Shown: piece by piece, positions 40,896 through 54,214 of the stretch
How the letters are laid out: each line of letters begins with the position of its first letter
How positions within the stretch are numbered: position 1 is the stretch's first letter
Source of the DNA: Populus alba
Taxonomy: Eukaryota > Streptophyta > Magnoliopsida > Malpighiales > Salicaceae
Direction of reading: 5' to 3'
NCBI RefSeq assembly: GCF_005239225.2
Contig: NC_133298.1
Location: 3,286,001-3,350,000, forward strand
Length of the DNA: 64,000 bases
Program-made: the position numbers and the translations under genes
Notes under the pieces: generated by a model
Told to the model about the DNA's origin: nothing
The model's database searches: none
Seen by the model: the letters and a program-made list of their open reading frames with translations, nothing else

Positions 40896-41119
40896 AAGTT
40901 TGATGATAGATGAAAGCTTAAAAAGCTCGTCTCATGTCTCAACCGTCGCATGCATGGACACAAATCTCCCCACGACAGAATAACCGTTCCCTTAACGTGT
41001 CCGGTGCGACTAGCCACCATAAAGAAACCTTCCAAGATAACTGAAATCCCCACCAATTTGTAGCATCCTCATCACCAAAAACAAGCCATAAACAAGGAGA
41101 GGAAGAACCCCCCAAAACC

Positions 41120-41857
41120 ATGGCAAAACAATCCTCAATGTTGCAGAAAAAACTGCGAGAACTTGAACATGAACTCATCAACAAAGTATTCTCTCTTCCT
41201 GCCGAGACTCAATTGTCTGAACTATATATTCAAGACGTCGAGCAAAGATTCTTCTTTCTGAAAAATCTCTTGTCGGCAGAAACAACATCAAGCTCTAAAA
41301 GGCCGCAGTACCGCTTGCAACAAATAGGCAAGAGGTTATCAGACCTTGAAACTGCATTCTATGACAGGAACAACAATAATAAAACAGCGACAACACAAGT
41401 CCAGTTAGAGAATGTTTCATGCTCCGCGTCTTGTCTTGATGATGATGGTGATCAGACCTTTAACGAAACGGGCTTGTGTGAATTTGAGGAGTCGGGGAAT
41501 GCTTTTCAGAGTTTGATGAAAGAGGCGACACCATTGACGGTGACAACCCAAGACCAGCTAGATAATGTTCCATCCACCGAGTCTTGTCTTGAAGAAGATG
41601 GAGATCAGACCTCTGAGGAAACGGGTTCGTTTGAATTTGAGGAGGCAGAGAATGCTTTTCAGAGTTTGATCGAAGAGAAGACACCATCGATGAAGACAGA
41701 GATGGTTAAGGTTCTTGTAAAGAAGAGATCGGGGAGGGTTTTTTGGGGCATGGCTAGTGGGGTGGTGATTGCCGTGGCTTTAGTGGGATTTATGACAGAA
41801 AGTTCAAGTGGAATCTTCCCTCATCTGAAACATAGTGTTTGTCTTCCTCCTACCTAA
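41120..41857 (+). CDS. Small plant protein with internal repeat and C-terminal anchor
   Basis: 245 residues in one exon; the ATG sits in ACCATGG. Residues 1-85 are a charged helical region (LQKKLRELEHEL, a likely short coiled coil, then QDVEQRFFFLKNLL and RLSDLETAF). Residues 91-138 and 142-189 are a tandem duplication of period 51 (TTQxQL(E/D)NV...SCL..DGDQT..ETG.FEFEE..NAFQSL). A single hydrophobic helix at about 207-225 is followed by a short tail, so the protein is probably a tail-anchored membrane protein. The N-terminal half resembles a plant-specific domain of unknown function (perhaps the DUF7610 type); I am unsure of the name. No function is assigned. Confidence 0.75.
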   Translation: MAKQSSMLQKKLRELEHELINKVFSLPAETQLSELYIQDVEQRFFFLKNLLSAETTSSSKRPQYRLQQIGKRLSDLETAFYDRNNNNKTATTQVQLENVSCSASCLDDDGDQTFNETGLCEFEESGNAFQSLMKEATPLTVTTQDQLDNVPSTESCLEEDGDQTSEETGSFEFEEAENAFQSLIEEKTPSMKTEMVKVLVKKRSGRVFWGMASGVVIAVALVGFMTESSSGIFPHLKHSVCLPPT

Positions 41858-48097: not shown

Positions 48098-48597
48098 NNN
48101 NNNNNNNNNNNNNNNNNNNNNNNNNNNNNNNNNNNNNNNNNNNNNNNNNNNNNNNNNNNNNNNNNNNNNNNNNNNNNNNNNNNNNNNNNNNNNNNNNNNN
48201 NNNNNNNNNNNNNNNNNNNNNNNNNNNNNNNNNNNNNNNNNNNNNNNNNNNNNNNNNNNNNNNNNNNNNNNNNNNNNNNNNNNNNNNNNNNNNNNNNNNN
48301 NNNNNNNNNNNNNNNNNNNNNNNNNNNNNNNNNNNNNNNNNNNNNNNNNNNNNNNNNNNNNNNNNNNNNNNNNNNNNNNNNNNNNNNNNNNNNNNNNNNN
48401 NNNNNNNNNNNNNNNNNNNNNNNNNNNNNNNNNNNNNNNNNNNNNNNNNNNNNNNNNNNNNNNNNNNNNNNNNNNNNNNNNNNNNNNNNNNNNNNNNNNN
48501 NNNNNNNNNNNNNNNNNNNNNNNNNNNNNNNNNNNNNNNNNNNNNNNNNNNNNNNNNNNNNNNNNNNNNNNNNNNNNNNNNNNNNNNNNNNNNNNNN
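48098..48597. other. Assembly gap (exactly 500 N)
   Basis: A round-number run of N is a placeholder, so the true distance is unknown. The right edge starts inside the pol gene of a retrotransposon, while the left edge is BAG7 flank. The 5' LTR, gag, protease and most of the reverse transcriptase of the element, and the first part of the GH9 gene it interrupts, must lie in the gap or be lost. Confidence 0.98.
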
Positions 48598-50691
48598 ATT
48601 CACTGAATGTGAGTCCAGATACACGGAGATAGAAAGGCTCTGTTGTGCGTTGGTGTGGGCGGCAAAGAGGTTGCGACATTACATGTTATACTATATACCA
48701 CTTGGTTTGATTTCAAAAGTGGATCCTCTGAGGTATATATGTAATAAGCCTTTCCTCTCAAGTAGGATTGCCAGGTGGCAAGTTTTATTAGCAGAATATG
48801 ACATAGTGTATATGACAAGGAAAGCCGTAAAAGGGAGTGCAATCGCGGACCATCTGGCCGATAATGCTATTGAAGATTACGAACCTTTGGATTTTGAGTT
48901 CCCCTGATGAAGATATATTGTCAATAGAAAAGGAAGAAGAAAAGACAGATTGGTGGACCATGTTTTTTGATGGGGCAGTAAATGTATATGGTAACGGGGC
49001 AGGGGCGGTGATAATCTCTCCTGATTAAGAAACAATACCCAGTTTCGGTCAAACTACACTTCGAGTGCACCAACAATACAGCTGAGTATGAAGCTTGTAT
49101 CCTCGGTTTAGAAGCAGCATTGGAGTTGAAAAATAAAGAAGATTGATGTATATGGGGACTCAATGTTGATCATTTTGCCAGGTAAAAGGGGAAATGGCAA
49201 ACCAAAGAAGAAAAATTGAGACCTTACCAGGAATACCTATCCATGCTAGCAAAGGAATTTGAAGAAATTAGATTCACCCATCTGGGAAGGGAGGGGAACC
49301 ATTTTGCGGATGCTTTGGCCACATTAGCTGCTATGACTACCATTGATCTCAAGTGCAAGGTACAACCGGTACACATTGATATTAGAAATGATCCAGCTCA
49401 CTGTTGTTTTTAGTTGAGGGAGAGATAGACGGACAACCTTGGTATTACGATATCAAGAATCTTGTGCAGAATCAGGAATATCCGGTGGGAGCTTCTAAGA
49501 CGGATAAGAAAACCTTGAGAAGGTTGGCTATAGACTTCTATTTAGATGGAGAGATTTTATATAAAAGGTCATTTGATGGAACCTTGTTAAGGTGTTTAGA
49601 TGAGGCAGATGCTAGAAGGGCATTAAGAGAGGTCCATGAGGGGATTTGCTCAACCCATGCTAGCGGACATATGATGGCAAGAAAAATCCAAAGGGCTGGT
49701 TATTTTTGGATGACACTAGAAAAAGACTGTATAGACTATGTCAGAAAATGTCACAAATGTCAAATTTACAGTGACAAGGTCAATATGCCACCCGCTCCTC
49801 TGTTTAACTTAACATCTCCATGGCCCTTCGCGATGTGGGGAATTGATGTGATTGGACCTGTAAACCCAAAAGCGAGCAATGGTCATAGATTTATCCTCGT
49901 GGCTATTGACTACTTCACAAAATGGGTAGAAGCCGGGTCATTTGCTCATGTGACGCAAAAAGTGGTGAAGAAATTTATTGAGAGGGATTTGATATGTCGG
50001 TAATGGTCCACCAGAAAAGATTATAACTGATAATGCCCAGAACTTCAACGGCAAGATGATAAATAGAGCTTTGCACGAAATGGAAAATCAAGCATTCCAA
50101 TTCTTCGCCATATAGAACCGAAAATGAACGGGGCGGTAGAAGCTGCTAACAAGAATATCAAAAAGATTATTCAGAAGATGGTAGTCACCTATAGGGATTG
50201 GCATGAGATGTTGCCATTTGCCCTTCATGCATATCGCACTGCAGTTCGAACCTCGACAGGGTCTACACCATATTCTCTGGTATACGGTATGGAAGCAGTG
50301 ATGCCCTTGGAAGTAGAAATCCCGTCGTTAAGAGTGTTAATAGATTCTGAGTTAGAAGAGGCCGGAGTGGGCCAAAGTGAGACACGAGCAACTGAACTTG
50401 ATCAGTGAAAAGAGGATGGCTGCAATATGTCATCACCAGCTTTACCAGAAACGAATGGCTAAGGCGTATGATAAGAAGGTTAGACCGCGGATGTTTCAAG
50501 AAGGGGATCTGGTATTAAAGAAAATGTTGTCATTACCCGGAGATGATCAAAGCAAATGGGCACCAAATTACGAGGGTCCTTATGTAGTAACAAAGGCATT
50601 CTCAGGAGGAGCATTGAAGTTAGCTAGAATGGATGGAGAAGACTTAGCTAGGCCTGTGAATTCTGACTCTGTAAAAAGATATTATGCTTGA
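48598..50691 (+). mobile_element. pol: Tat-lineage Ty3/gypsy retrotransposon, decayed pol
   Basis: Remaining pol domains in order: end of the reverse-transcriptase RNase H (48598-48900), a second RNase H with a FFDGA motif and TAEYEA and FADALATL motifs (about 48950-49330), integrase with the HHCC zinc-binding region (about 49635-49770) and the catalytic D (GIDVIGP, about 49845), D (TDN, about 50028) and E (about 50132) sites, and an integrase tail ending KRYYA. Two RNase H domains in a row are known from the plant Tat lineage (Ogre, Retand, TatI). The reading frame is broken by several stops and shifts between 48905 and 50410, so this copy is inactive. It continues rightwards through the hairpin array and polypurine tract to the LTR. 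Confidence 0.88.
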
Positions 50692-51362
50692 TGTAAGCCC
50701 TTAAATCAATACAGCAAAGTTTTGGCCATTGATTTCTTTCTTCTTGCATTGATCTCACAACATTCATTTTCGTATTAATCCAAACCGTGCATGTCTTGGT
50801 GTTATTCTCATCACTTATTAAAAGGTTTAGCATCAGCTGAACGCATGTCTTCTCTATATAAAAAGCTCAGACTAGGATCACACCCCTACGTTGGGGGCAA
50901 TACAAGATGTTTTTTTTCGGAAGCTAATAGATTTGAAAACCAAGCTAAAGCATTTGACAAAAAGCATGACAAAAAGGCAATAACAAGTCATACATTTTGA
51001 GAAAGTGACTACTTGAAGAAAGTCAAAGACTTCTTCTCCAAGAATATGATCAATAAAAAGAGGCAACACGAGAGATGAATCCAGCATACAAAAGCAAGCT
51101 CGTGTTAAGAAGGAGCTTCATAAACTAGAAAAAGATGATGGGGCCTATGTTTCAAACCAGGTACGAATGCATGCATTGCATCTAATCATAAATCATTGCA
51201 TGTTTGTTTTTATGGTTACAGGAGGAGATCTTAGTGCATTCCAACAAGATTGTGGACGAAGAAAGAATCGTTGAGTTGATTCTAGAACAACAAGAAGAGA
51301 AGATAATAGCTTCCAAACCTTGCCCGTACGAAGAACGACATCAATATCAACTTTGGTAATAA
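50692..51362 (+). other. Retrotransposon 3' untranslated spacer
   Basis: Between the end of pol and the hairpin array. No conserved ORF is recognised; it contains A-rich stretches with Lys-rich chance frames. Confidence 0.5.
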
Positions 51363-52160
51363 GGAATCGCCAGATGGGATTCCAAGCTGTTTGAGATCGC
51401 CAGAAGGGATCTCGTATTTCACTATTGTGGAGGTCGCCAGATGGGACCTCATATTTCATGTTTGTTAAAAGGAATCGCCAGATGGGATTCCGAGTTGATT
51501 AAAGGAGATCGCCAGAAGGGATCTCGTGTTTCGCTATTTGGAGGTCACCAGATGGGACCTCATATTTCATGTTGGTAATAAGGAACCGCCAGATGGGATT
51601 CCAAGTTGATTAAAGGAGATCGCCAGAAGGGATCTCGGGTTTCACTATTTGGAGGTCGCCAGATGGGACCTCATATTTCATGTTTGTTAAAAGGAATCGC
51701 CAGATGGGATTCCAAGTTGATTAAAGGAGATCGCCAGAAGGGATCTCGGGTTTCACTATTTGGAGGTCGCCAGATGGGACCTCGTATTTCATATTTGTTA
51801 AAAGGAATCGCCAGATGGGATTCCAAGTTGATTAAAGGAGATCGCCAGAAGGGATCTCGGGTTTCACTATTTGGAGGTCGCCAGATGGGACCTCGTATTT
51901 CATGTTGGTTAAAAGGAATCGCCAGATGGGATTCCAAGTTGATTAAAGGAGATCGCCAGAAGGGATCTCGTGTTTCACTATTTGGAGGTCGCCAGATGGG
52001 ACCTCATATCTCATATTTCATATAGGAATCGCCAGATGGGGTTCCGATTTGATTAAAGGAGATCGCCAGAAGGGATCTCGTATTTCGATAATTGTCAAAA
52101 GAGGGCGCCAGAGGGGACCTCATATTTTCTATTTTTAGGGAATCGCCAGATGGGATCCCA
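51363..52160 (+). repeat. 111-bp tandem array made of three covarying hairpins
   Basis: About seven units of 111 bases start at 51363, 51471, 51582, 51693, 51804, 51915, 52025 and (partly) 52139. Each unit contains three hairpins with 6-bp stems around a shared loop GCCAGAWGG: stem pairs GGAATC/GATTCC, GAGATC/GATCTC and GAGGTC/GACCTC, joined by spacers of about 13, 15 and 20 bases. Stems differ between the three types but both arms change together; loops stay the same. Tandem repeats before the 3' LTR are known from Tat elements, but I do not know this hairpin design from that literature. Confidence 0.9.
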
Positions 52161-52292
52161 AAATTTGAGGCCGAAGAGGATTGTCGTAAAGAAGGAGTTT
52201 CAGATCGATCAAGCTTCGACCAGATCAGTTTCAGAAGTTCAGACTGGGTTATCTTTATAAAACTTACTACGCCTTTGCTCTGTAAGCATTAT

Positions 52293-52306
52293 AAAGAGGG
52301 GGCATC
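52293..52306 (+). promoter_or_regulatory. Polypurine tract of the retrotransposon
   Basis: AAAGAGGGGGCATC directly precedes the LTR start TGTTGTAACCC at 52307; the purine run would prime plus-strand DNA synthesis. Confidence 0.75.
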
Positions 52307-52990
52307 TGTTGTAACCCATTTTTGGGCTAAATAAATAAATAGCCGAAGAAGGTTAGAAAAAATAACAAGAGGCATAAGCGCTCAGAAAAGGGTCGAAAGA
52401 TTGGTCAAGGAGGTTAAAAAATACAGAGATTGGATTTTTGGCAGTATTTTCTTGAAGGATGAGAGCCCTGTTGAGAAGGAAAATGTAAATGTTTGAGGAG
52501 AAAAGCCCAAATTTAGATGTTTATGGACTTAATTGGATTTTATTTGAATTTTATAGAGGATTGGAGTGCAAGAAAAATTGATTTTTAAGTCAATTTGGGC
52601 TTTAATTAGAAGAAATTTAAGTTCTGGGGCCAAAATATATTTTTTAGGAATTTATTGGGTCAAATCAGGGGCTTAATCGCATAAATATTGAAGTTTAATG
52701 GACAATTAGGGGTTTAATTGTGAAAATCCGAAACCAGGGACCAATTTGGAAAAAGCGGGTAAATATGGGGGGCTGTCTTGATTTGATCCAGGGGCGTAAT
52801 TGAAGAAATTGGGAGTTTATTGATCAATTGAGGGCTTAATTGCATAAATCAGAGGCCAAGGACCAAGATGAAAAACGCGGCCAACTATGAGGGCGAGGAC
52901 CGAATTTGGCAGGGACGTAATTGAAAGAATCAAAAGATAATTGAGGGCTGAGTTGAAATTTTGCGTATTCTGGCGCCATTTTTTAAATGA

Positions 52991-53022
52991 AACGGCGCGT
53001 TTTCCCCAAAACGACGCCGTTT

Positions 53023-53065
<43 letters not shown>

Positions 53066-53095
53066 AGGACCGAACGGTGCCGTTTTGAACGGCAC
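52991..53095 (+). repeat. Two palindromes around the LTR poly(A) run
   Basis: GAAACGGCG...CGCCGTTTC (52991-53025, with inner CGTTTT/AAAACG pairing) and GTGCCGTT-TTG-AACGGCAC (53077-53095) flank a long A-run. Confidence 0.85.
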
Positions 53096-53703
53096 TATTC
53101 ACCTTTCTTCTTCCTCCCCGAACGTGCAGCAGCATGGACGAAACCTTTGTTTAATCAGGCGGTGCCCCTCTCTCCTCGCGTGCGCTGACAGACCAAGCCC
53201 ATGCACCTCGGACGATGCGAAGCCAGGAGGGCCACGCCGTGATCGACCACGCTCACCGACCAGCCGACCGGCGCTGCCCCCCACGTTGCCCCAGCTCAAC
53301 CCACCTTGTTCTGCTCCCCACGCTGCCCATGCAGCCCCGCTCCTTTGTCCGCCTATAAAAGAAGAGGAAAGATGTGAAGCACGGGAGAGAAAGGAGACCG
53401 AAACCAAGAGAGAGAGAGAAACTGAAGGAGAGAGAAACAGTGGACCTAAAGAAATAAACACCTAAAACTCAAGAAAACGAAACTGAAAAAGGGAGAAGAG
53501 GACAGAAGCCGTGGGAGAGTTTAAAGAAAACGTTAACCGAACACGACCCGAGAGGATACACCCGAACTGTGGGGAACCGTCGTTCTGAGCCGCCGATCAC
53601 CGCTGCAACACCGTCAACCCGTACGTTCGACCAGCAGCCTCATCTCCGCCGTGCCAGGTATTTTTTCTTTCCCCCCCTACGTTTTCATTTTTATATTTGT
53701 TAT

Positions 53704-54098
53704 CCTCCTGCATGCAGAATCGTTCTGCATGCAGGAGGTAGGGGAAGGGAAAATAATTCCCTTCCCCGTGGGTTTTTTTTTTTTTACACTGGGCCGGGTT
53801 TCCGGCCCAGTTTTGTTATTATTTATTTTGGGCCAGACCGAGTCTGGCCCAGTCAAAAGAATTTTTTGTGTTGGGCCGAGATCGGCCCATCCTCCTTGCG
53901 GGCCGAGATCGGCCCATCCTCCTTGCGGGCCGAGATCGGCCCATCCTCCTTGCGGGCCGAGATCGGCCCATCCTCCTTGCGGGCCGAGATCGGCCCATCC
54001 TCCTTGCGGGCCGAGATCGGCCCATCCTCCTTGCGGGCCGAGATCGGCCCGATTCTAGCTAGGTTGGGTTCGGCCCATTCATTTGGGCCGGCCCAACC
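53704..54098 (+). repeat. Chain of consecutive hairpins in the LTR
   Basis: Perfect inverted repeats in a row: 16-bp arms CCTCCTGCATGCAGAA (53704-53738, loop TCG); 11-bp arms GGGGAAGGGAA (53741-53767); 10-bp arms ACTGGGCCGG (53788-53811); 10-bp arms TGGGCCAGAC (53829-53851); then seven units of a 27-bp repeat from 53873 to about 54050, each with GGGCCGA-GA-TCGGCCC; finally GGTTGGG...CCCAACC (54062-54098). Confidence 0.9.
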
Positions 54099-54214
54099 CG
54101 ATTTGTTATTATATATATATTATGAATTATAGTATATTGTAATATATATGTGTGTATATTGTGTATATATTTTTTCTACTAAAAAAAAAAATATTTCAAA
54201 AAAATCTAAAAAAA

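Follow-up and report, generated by a model that had tools for sequence, protein, structure and literature searches.

Array and host element in the window

The window analysed here, 64,000 nucleotides of the Populus alba genome (contig NC_133298.1, positions 3,286,001 to 3,350,000), carries a tandem array that lies between pol and the 3' long terminal repeat (LTR) of a Ty3/gypsy retrotransposon. Tandem Repeats Finder (TRF) delimits the array at 51352-52161, as 7.3 copies of a 111-bp unit. Within 51363-52159 there are 22 sites of the loop GCCAGAWGG, spaced by 34, 36 and 41 nt in most units, and each is flanked by the arms of one of three stems: type A (GGAATC/GATTCC), type B (GAGATC/GATCTC) or type C (GAGGTC/GACCTC). 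The hairpins follow the order A-B-C seven times and end with a further A. A first-pass annotation, made from the letters alone, had proposed these three types and up to about 22 hairpins. The scan recovered all 22, of which 18 have six Watson-Crick pairs, one is paired through a G.U and three carry a single mismatch (loops at 51588, 52107 and 52145). The same annotation had observed that both arms differ together between types, as is indeed the case at pairs 2, 3 and 4, the three pairs that distinguish the stems. The loop is exactly GCCAGAWGG in 20 of the 22 hairpins, the exceptions being ACCAGATGG at 51547 and GCCAGAGGG at 52107. With up to one mismatch allowed, the whole window holds 40 such sites, including the 22 of the array, against 11.3 expected and a maximum of 21 in 100 shuffles.

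The features are as follows; hairpins come from the loop and stem scan.

51363-52159, + strand: array of 22 hairpins, A-B-C seven times and a final A (TRF, loop/stem scan, folding)
51363-51383, + strand: hairpin 1, type A
51393-51413, + strand: hairpin 2, type B
51430-51450, + strand: hairpin 3, type C
51471-51491, + strand: hairpin 4, type A
51505-51525, + strand: hairpin 5, type B
51541-51561, + strand: hairpin 6, type C, loop ACCAGATGG
51582-51602, + strand: hairpin 7, type A, single mismatched pair
51616-51636, + strand: hairpin 8, type B
51652-51672, + strand: hairpin 9, type C
51693-51713, + strand: hairpin 10, type A
51727-51747, + strand: hairpin 11, type B (also folding)
51763-51783, + strand: hairpin 12, type C (also folding)
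51804-51824, + strand: hairpin 13, type A
51838-51858, + strand: hairpin 14, type B
51874-51894, + strand: hairpin 15, type C
51915-51935, + strand: hairpin 16, type A
51949-51969, + strand: hairpin 17, type B
51985-52005, + strand: hairpin 18, type C
52025-52045, + strand: hairpin 19, type A with a G.U pair, GGAATC/GGTTCC (variant present in 32 of 65 arrays)
52059-52079, + strand: hairpin 20, type B
52101-52121, + strand: hairpin 21, type C, single mismatched pair, loop GCCAGAGGG
52139-52159, + strand: hairpin 22, type A, single mismatched pair, GGAATC/GATCCC (variant present in 26 of 65 arrays)
52293-52302, + strand: polypurine tract (PPT) AAAGAGGGGG, from the sequence; 54 of 59 arrays have AAAGAGGG within the 20 bases that precede the LTR
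52307-52317, + strand: start of the 3' LTR (TGTTGTAACCC), from the sequence and relatives
49392-50003, + strand: integrase piece with H2C2 zinc finger (PF17921, E 9e-9) and weak rve (PF00665, E 0.04)
48599-48904, + strand: reverse transcriptase (RT)-RNase H piece bordering an assembly gap (PF17917, E 1e-11)

RNA folding refines the nominal nine-base loop into a 1-nt bulged G, two base pairs (CC/GG) and an AGAU or AGAA tetraloop above the 6-bp stem. This predicted fold has A and then G at tetraloop positions 1-2 on a closed stem, as AGNN tetraloops do. Single hairpins of types B and C reach -10.8 and -12.8 kcal/mol, values equalled by none of 200 shuffles; the type A piece, one base too short, folds at -6.3 kcal/mol, and 16 of 200 shuffles do as well. 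A 111-nt unit folds at -35.3 in the sense orientation (z -2.6, 2 of 200 shuffles as good) and at -33.0 in antisense (z -4.8, 0 of 200). Membership of a known RNA family was rejected, as comparison of 50700-54200 with 4227 Rfam families gave eight matches at E <=1 and none at its gathering score. A kissing-loop dimer signal was rejected as well, the loop not being self-complementary as judged by eye.

The element follows the Ty3/gypsy order, with RT-RNase H, the H2C2 integrase, and then the PPT and LTR, so that the array lies after pol and before the PPT and LTR as first annotated. Tandem repeats between pol and the 3' LTR, a trait of the Tat lineage (Ogre, Retand), are present. A further mark of that lineage is a second, archaeal-type RNase H between RT-RNase H and integrase. 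In that region of the window copy the frame is broken, and a 40-aa open piece (48906-49025) matches no RNase H family. A 500-N assembly gap (48098-48597) lies inside the element, and RT and any 5' part fall in or beyond it. Because no second LTR copy was found in 38000-60000 and the pol frame is broken, the window copy looks dead.

Copies across the genome and constraint during replication

In the 416-Mb P. alba genome the loop joined to GACCTC occurs at 1407 sites, against 2 for the reversed control, and BLAST with the array and its flank gave 77 matches, the first 35 rows being 88-100% identical. From both searches 67 stretches were taken (L143-L209, with L170 the window's own copy), some of them near-duplicates of one another (e.g., L165 and L166), and 65 hold the array. 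The first 57 stretches, 55 of them used, contain 1339 hairpin sites, of which 1171 are free of mismatched pairs, 137 have one such pair and 31 more than one. All 65 arrays together contain 1649 sites, 1218 of them canonical. The loop, first annotated as invariant, is not so: in the family 1414 sites match it exactly, and its position 7 is free.

The A-B-C order is kept in 1485 of 1569 neighbouring hairpin pairs, and spacing varies among arrays (30/42/42, 34/36/41, 30/37/41, 38/32/43), as does the number of hairpins, from 8 to 45. Arrays both start and end with A in 34 of 65 cases and have 3n+1 hairpins in 37. The same 3' LTR start lies downstream in 59 arrays and was not found within the stretch taken in the other 6; the last hairpin is 141-158 nt from it in 42 arrays, 159-240 in 10 and 675-1001 in 7.

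Some copies have features of their own. A copy on another contig (C1:53627332-53628268) is 100% identical, after rounding, to the window array and flank over 937 bases, reflecting a recent transposition or duplication. L144, L154, L157, L159, L161, L205 and L208 carry a second, unrelated tandem repeat of ~38 nt between the A-B-C array and the LTR; by eye, it holds a GGGT-N5-ACCC hairpin with variable N5 and is followed by a last A/B/C-like hairpin block before the PPT. In other collections, of viral and of genome contigs, pattern scans gave at least 120, 2 and 12 stretches; these were virus and bacterial or archaeal records with 1-2 matches each, which are read as chance.

To compare rates of change, 455 A-B-C units were cut (320 distinct), hairpins were aligned ungapped and spacers by MAFFT, and changes were counted by parsimony on a FastTree tree. 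Changes on terminal branches are private and mostly post-insertion, whereas internal branches carry the inherited changes, which were passed on through replication. On average, units differ pairwise by 0.049 in stems and by 0.036 in loops (0.130 at the free position 7), against 0.17-0.25 in spacers. On the full tree, private changes per column are similar throughout, at 3.2 in the stem, 3.9 in the loop and 3.9, 3.6 and 4.6 in the spacers, while inherited changes number 1.4, 0.9 and 3.7, 5.4 and 5.0, respectively (Fisher p 3.6e-7 for stem and 2.6e-12 for loop against spacer). Held-out trees, from which the tested block was omitted, give 1.25 inherited changes per column in the stem, 0.52 in the loop and 5.90 in the spacer (p 6.5e-6 and 9.1e-11). 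Inherited change in stems and loops is accordingly ~3 to 6 times below that in spacers on the full tree and 5 to 11 times below it on held-out trees. Since private change is similar, this deficit shows that the hairpins (stem pairs 2-5 and the loop) were constrained during element replication and kept through it while the spacers drifted. The first-pass annotation had held that structure would not be maintained if other copies lost pairing as fast as their spacers drift, and these copies do not.

The constraint is unevenly distributed. Inherited changes per column are 0.50 in stem pairs 2-5, 0.11 in the loop AGA and 6.3 in the spacer, and the outermost stem pair is loosely kept. Loop positions C2, A4, G5 and G8 have none, A6 has one and position 7 has five. 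The A and G at tetraloop positions 1-2 have 0 and 0 inherited changes beside 8 and 15 private ones. The contrast of stem and loop with spacer holds in the BLAST-retrieved arrays alone, and is weaker in the C1 arrays alone, which were retrieved via the type C arm. In these the test gives p 0.009 for stem pairs 2-5 and p 0.07 for the AGA, and shows no difference for the outer pair or for pair 6.

The A-B, B-C and C-A spacers are, by eye, shorter or longer versions of one sequence near RTATTTCATGTTTGTTAAAG, from which it follows that the A-B-C triplet probably derives from a single ancestral monomer of ~37 bp. Amplification of such a hairpin in threes had been put forward at first annotation as an alternative to selection. 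It appears right as an account of origin, and is compatible with structural constraint, the two not being mutually exclusive. The array may gain and lose hairpins mainly as whole triplets, by unequal exchange or RT slippage, and copy number would vary in this way while hairpin identity is kept.

A purely neutral history would add to this amplification an arm-to-arm correction, by RT template switching at the quasi-palindrome, and homogenisation. It accommodates the shared spacer sequence, the arrays of 3n+1 hairpins and the compensated double changes described below, and gene-conversion homogenisation is suggested for the soybean Gmr9 arrays in the accessible text of PMC3305785. Homogenisation should, however, hit spacer and hairpin alike, yet inherited change is several times lower in hairpins; constraint is strongest at the loop AGA, which lies out of reach of arm correction; and such correction offers no ground for G.U over A.C. 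We therefore regard this history as unlikely, though deserving some weight. A selfish array maker, whose hairpins stall RT, provoke strand transfer and thereby breed the repeats that maintain the array with no benefit for the element, agrees with the wide range of hairpin numbers per array. It leaves the constraint on the loop AG beside a free position 7 unexplained and appears very unlikely.

Strand of pairing and covariation

In RNA, an exchange between A-U and G-C pairs can pass through G.U, whereas A.C is a blind alley. At stem pair 4, A-U (type B), G.U (C', GAGGTC/GATCTC) and G-C (type C) each exist as arrays. The C' form runs through three arrays of a deep subfamily (L212-L214), where 32 of 50 hairpins are C', 22 of them exactly, and none is closest to the A.C form; type A is followed there by a different spacer of ~44 nt. 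Genome-wide, the G.U-form pattern has 24 hits, 15 of them in these three arrays, against 6 for the mirror A.C form, each isolated and none in an array. Inner pairs 2-5 of the 320 P. alba units comprise 3720 Watson-Crick, 82 G.U, 22 A.C and 16 other cells. In one random draw of 62 units, one per array, RNAalifold gave -18.6 kcal/mol for the sense and -3.4 for the antisense strand, with column shuffles (n=100) at -3.2 +/- 2.0 and at best -8.4, so that consensus structure appears on the sense strand only.

Further counts come from translated relatives, 167 proteins (39 of 39, 36 of 36, and 92 new among 120 listed of 257), many of shared descent, whose stems were read taking S as TCN. At pairs 3/4 the sense-frame counts are 318 Watson-Crick, 36 G.U and 2 A.C, and the antisense-frame counts 90, 6 and 1, respectively; of 239 readings of pair 2, 185 are Watson-Crick, 48 G.U, 1 A.C and 5 ambiguous. 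Proteins P0039, P0098, P0136 and others are translated arrays with other spacers and a stem that would read GGGATC/GATCTC (G.U at pair 2), apparently a further, deeper array class. The existence of such proteins raises the question of coding, since the window array is open in a sense and an antisense frame, part of it is crossed by open reading frames of 147 and 110 aa, and databases contain many such "hypothetical proteins". Unit lengths of 113 beside 108, 111 and 114, together with relatives open in three sense frames and in antisense, led us to reject a coding function, to which next to no credence is left.

Because G.U rather than A.C intermediates form arrays, pairing in the sense RNA is favoured. 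The pairing that matters is probably that of the sense RNA, a conclusion supported, not proved, by these sequences, other strand tests being neutral. The constraint on structure that the first reading of the locus had suspected gains support both from these array forms and from the deficit of inherited change in stems and loops. A table of single changes (private forms, 0 wobble and 17 breaking; forms in at least two arrays, 15 wobble and 11 breaking) is not used as proof, because most private changes are transversions, which always break a pair.

Covariation inside types is real but sparse. AAGGTC/GACCTT occurs in type C in 10 arrays, and in the tree a clade of 6 passes from G.U to A-U. Within type B, GAAATC/GGTTTC is found in 4 arrays and GAAATC/GATTTC in 1, the latter also once in a deep array; within type A, AAAATC/GATTTC is found in 2 arrays, with the outer pair broken. 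Hairpins with exactly two arm changes show same-pair compensation in 13 of 86 cases (3 of 34 distinct). So few compensations within types indicate that the stems are also conserved as sequences, a demand that a pure scaffold would not make.

A number of points weigh against hairpins of the sense RNA as the object of selection. The 819-nt array folds with z = -6.1 relative to 20 shuffles, but its minimum-energy fold joins several type C arms of different units over long range, so that this value is no proof of all 22 hairpins as local structures. One 111-nt unit makes three hairpins on either strand, and mean hairpin energy over the 1649 sites hardly differs between the two (-8.82 and -8.61). 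G.U-keeping and pair-breaking changes in the P. alba tree stand at 28:17 on internal and 58:47 on terminal branches, a shift that is not significant (p 0.47). The genome patterns for G.U and A.C were of unequal width, and it was a search with the G.U form that retrieved the deep arrays. The G.U types may go back to one or two ancestral events, with counts overstating their independence. Some G.U forms result from C-to-T change in a methylation context, namely the CpG at stem position 6 and the CHG site at loop C3. By chance ~1 in 11 double changes would fall on one pair, a share to be set against the 13 of 86 seen. Among hairpins with more than one change, 7 of the 15 shared forms and 10 of the 46 private ones remain fully paired (p 0.10). 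The stem sequence itself is conserved beyond pairing, the canonical types being commonest throughout the ABC family. In held-out trees private changes, too, are more frequent in spacers, at 8.2 per column compared with 2.3-3.9, although the outer pair has 9.3, so the equal-clock argument rests on the full tree. Finally, units with unrecognisable hairpins were left uncounted, and 84 of the 1569 neighbouring hairpins are out of A-B-C order.

Some of these points would suit palindromes acting at the DNA level, as inverted repeats of the integrated element that are bound by a protein or adopt cruciform structure. The arms are inverted repeats, a DNA constraint would yield the same low substitution rate, internal and terminal branches show no significant wobble shift, and either strand of a single unit can fold. 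Against this, fixed arms would be expected if a protein bound the DNA, but here one loop is combined with three different stems. Moreover, G.T is A.C on the other strand, so no strand preference would be expected, yet the counts prefer the sense strand. This explanation appears quite unlikely.

Possible use of the hairpins and related systems

The favoured reading, held tentatively and at just under even confidence, is that the array forms RNA hairpins in the 3' untranslated region (UTR) of a P. alba Ty3/gypsy family, kept in replication and recognised by a loop-reading protein as an export or packaging mark. Each hairpin would consist of the 6-bp stem, the bulged G, two C-G pairs and the AGA(A/U) tetraloop. 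A protein reading the loop, with the stem as scaffold, may bind many hairpin copies on the full-length RNA, and such protein-binding sites would most likely serve to tag that RNA for export or for Gag to package. A loop that stays constant while the stems change is the mark expected of a loop-reading protein, and export or packaging is rated likeliest because of the place of the array, like that of retroviral export elements, together with the intron of Medicago Ogre elements. It is intriguing to speculate that three rotating stems keep next neighbours from cross-pairing, although type C arms cross-pair at a distance in the whole-array fold. The favoured reading suggests that a supposedly meaningless repeat serves the element's RNA.

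AGNN tetraloops are reportedly bound by the yeast RNase III Rnt1p (Wu and colleagues, 2004). The poplar loop is likewise A-G-A-N, its first two positions without inherited change and its last free, while Rnt1p substrates are said to be longer than the 8-bp bulged stem of the poplar hairpin. We know of no plant protein that reads an AGNN-type tetraloop.

The constitutive transport element (CTE) of Mason-Pfizer monkey virus (MPMV) lies near the 3' LTR. Retrotransposon export elements include the RTE of IAP and the MTE of musD, and Medicago Ogre elements carry a functional intron (PMC12786077); the MER11 CTE lies between env and the PPT-bearing end (PMC11379458). Such elements are structured RNAs that act in cis on unspliced RNA, and the comparison with the poplar array is one of possible working, with no likeness of sequence or fold claimed. 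In the accessible text of both sources they are not described as arrays of small hairpins, whereas poplar arrays hold 8-45.

Tandem arrays at this place, including soybean [ABC]n, are already known; the literature searched, outside which most subscription journals lie, gave no report of hairpins in Tat 3' UTR arrays or of a constrained hairpin as their unit. To our knowledge, mapped cis-acting RNA signals are lacking for plant Ty3/gypsy elements. The 3' UTR tandem repeats of Tat/Ogre LTR retrotransposons were reportedly described as hypervariable by Macas and colleagues in 2009. Tandem arrays between pol and the 3' LTR are a known Tat/Ogre trait, with the same place and variable unit number as in poplar (PMC7004042, PMC11963269). 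As far as the accessible text of these reports goes, such arrays are variable in sequence and length and a source of satellites, with no conserved hairpin, whereas in poplar the hairpins are constrained and the spacers vary. The pol-3' LTR region measures ~1.6 kb in the window copy and 2.9-6.6 kb in the Retand survey, as given in the part of PMC11963269 consulted. Soybean Gmr9/GmOgre minisatellites, [ABC]n and [ABAC]n, occupy the same place, with interleaved A, B and C units of 26, 38 and 37 bp and up to 149 repeats per locus (PMC3305785). Compared by description, the Gmr9 repeats are reported as dissimilar except that B and C agree at nine of their last 11 bases, with no hairpin described in the accessible text of PMC3305785, whereas poplar A, B and C are one hairpin on three stems.

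Why Tat-lineage elements keep an array before the 3' LTR is an open question in the accessible text of PMC7004042, which presents these arrays as known to seed satellite DNA, and according to the accessible part of a review dated December 2025, the RNA export of plant LTR retrotransposons has not been studied directly (PMC12786077). A constrained hairpin as repeat unit makes the question of array retention testable, and the natural three-state variants (A-U, G.U, G-C), with free and fixed loop positions, can guide experiments. More broadly, the "hypervariable" 3' UTR arrays of the Tat lineage might be multi-copy RNA recognition elements rather than by-products, read by an element- or host-encoded loop-reading protein for export or packaging, with rotating stems that counter neighbour pairing; this extension is possible, but we consider it rather doubtful. 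If it is true, other Tat/Ogre arrays, soybean [ABC]n included, should hide hairpins of their own.

Two further repeats were noted in the window. Within the 3' LTR, a 27-bp repeat at 53873-54050 (6.6 copies, 100% matches) contains the perfect palindrome GGGCCGAGATCGGCCC in each unit and is surrounded by further inverted repeats. At 41389-41687, a 153-bp tandem duplication in 2 copies lies within the open frame 41045-41857.
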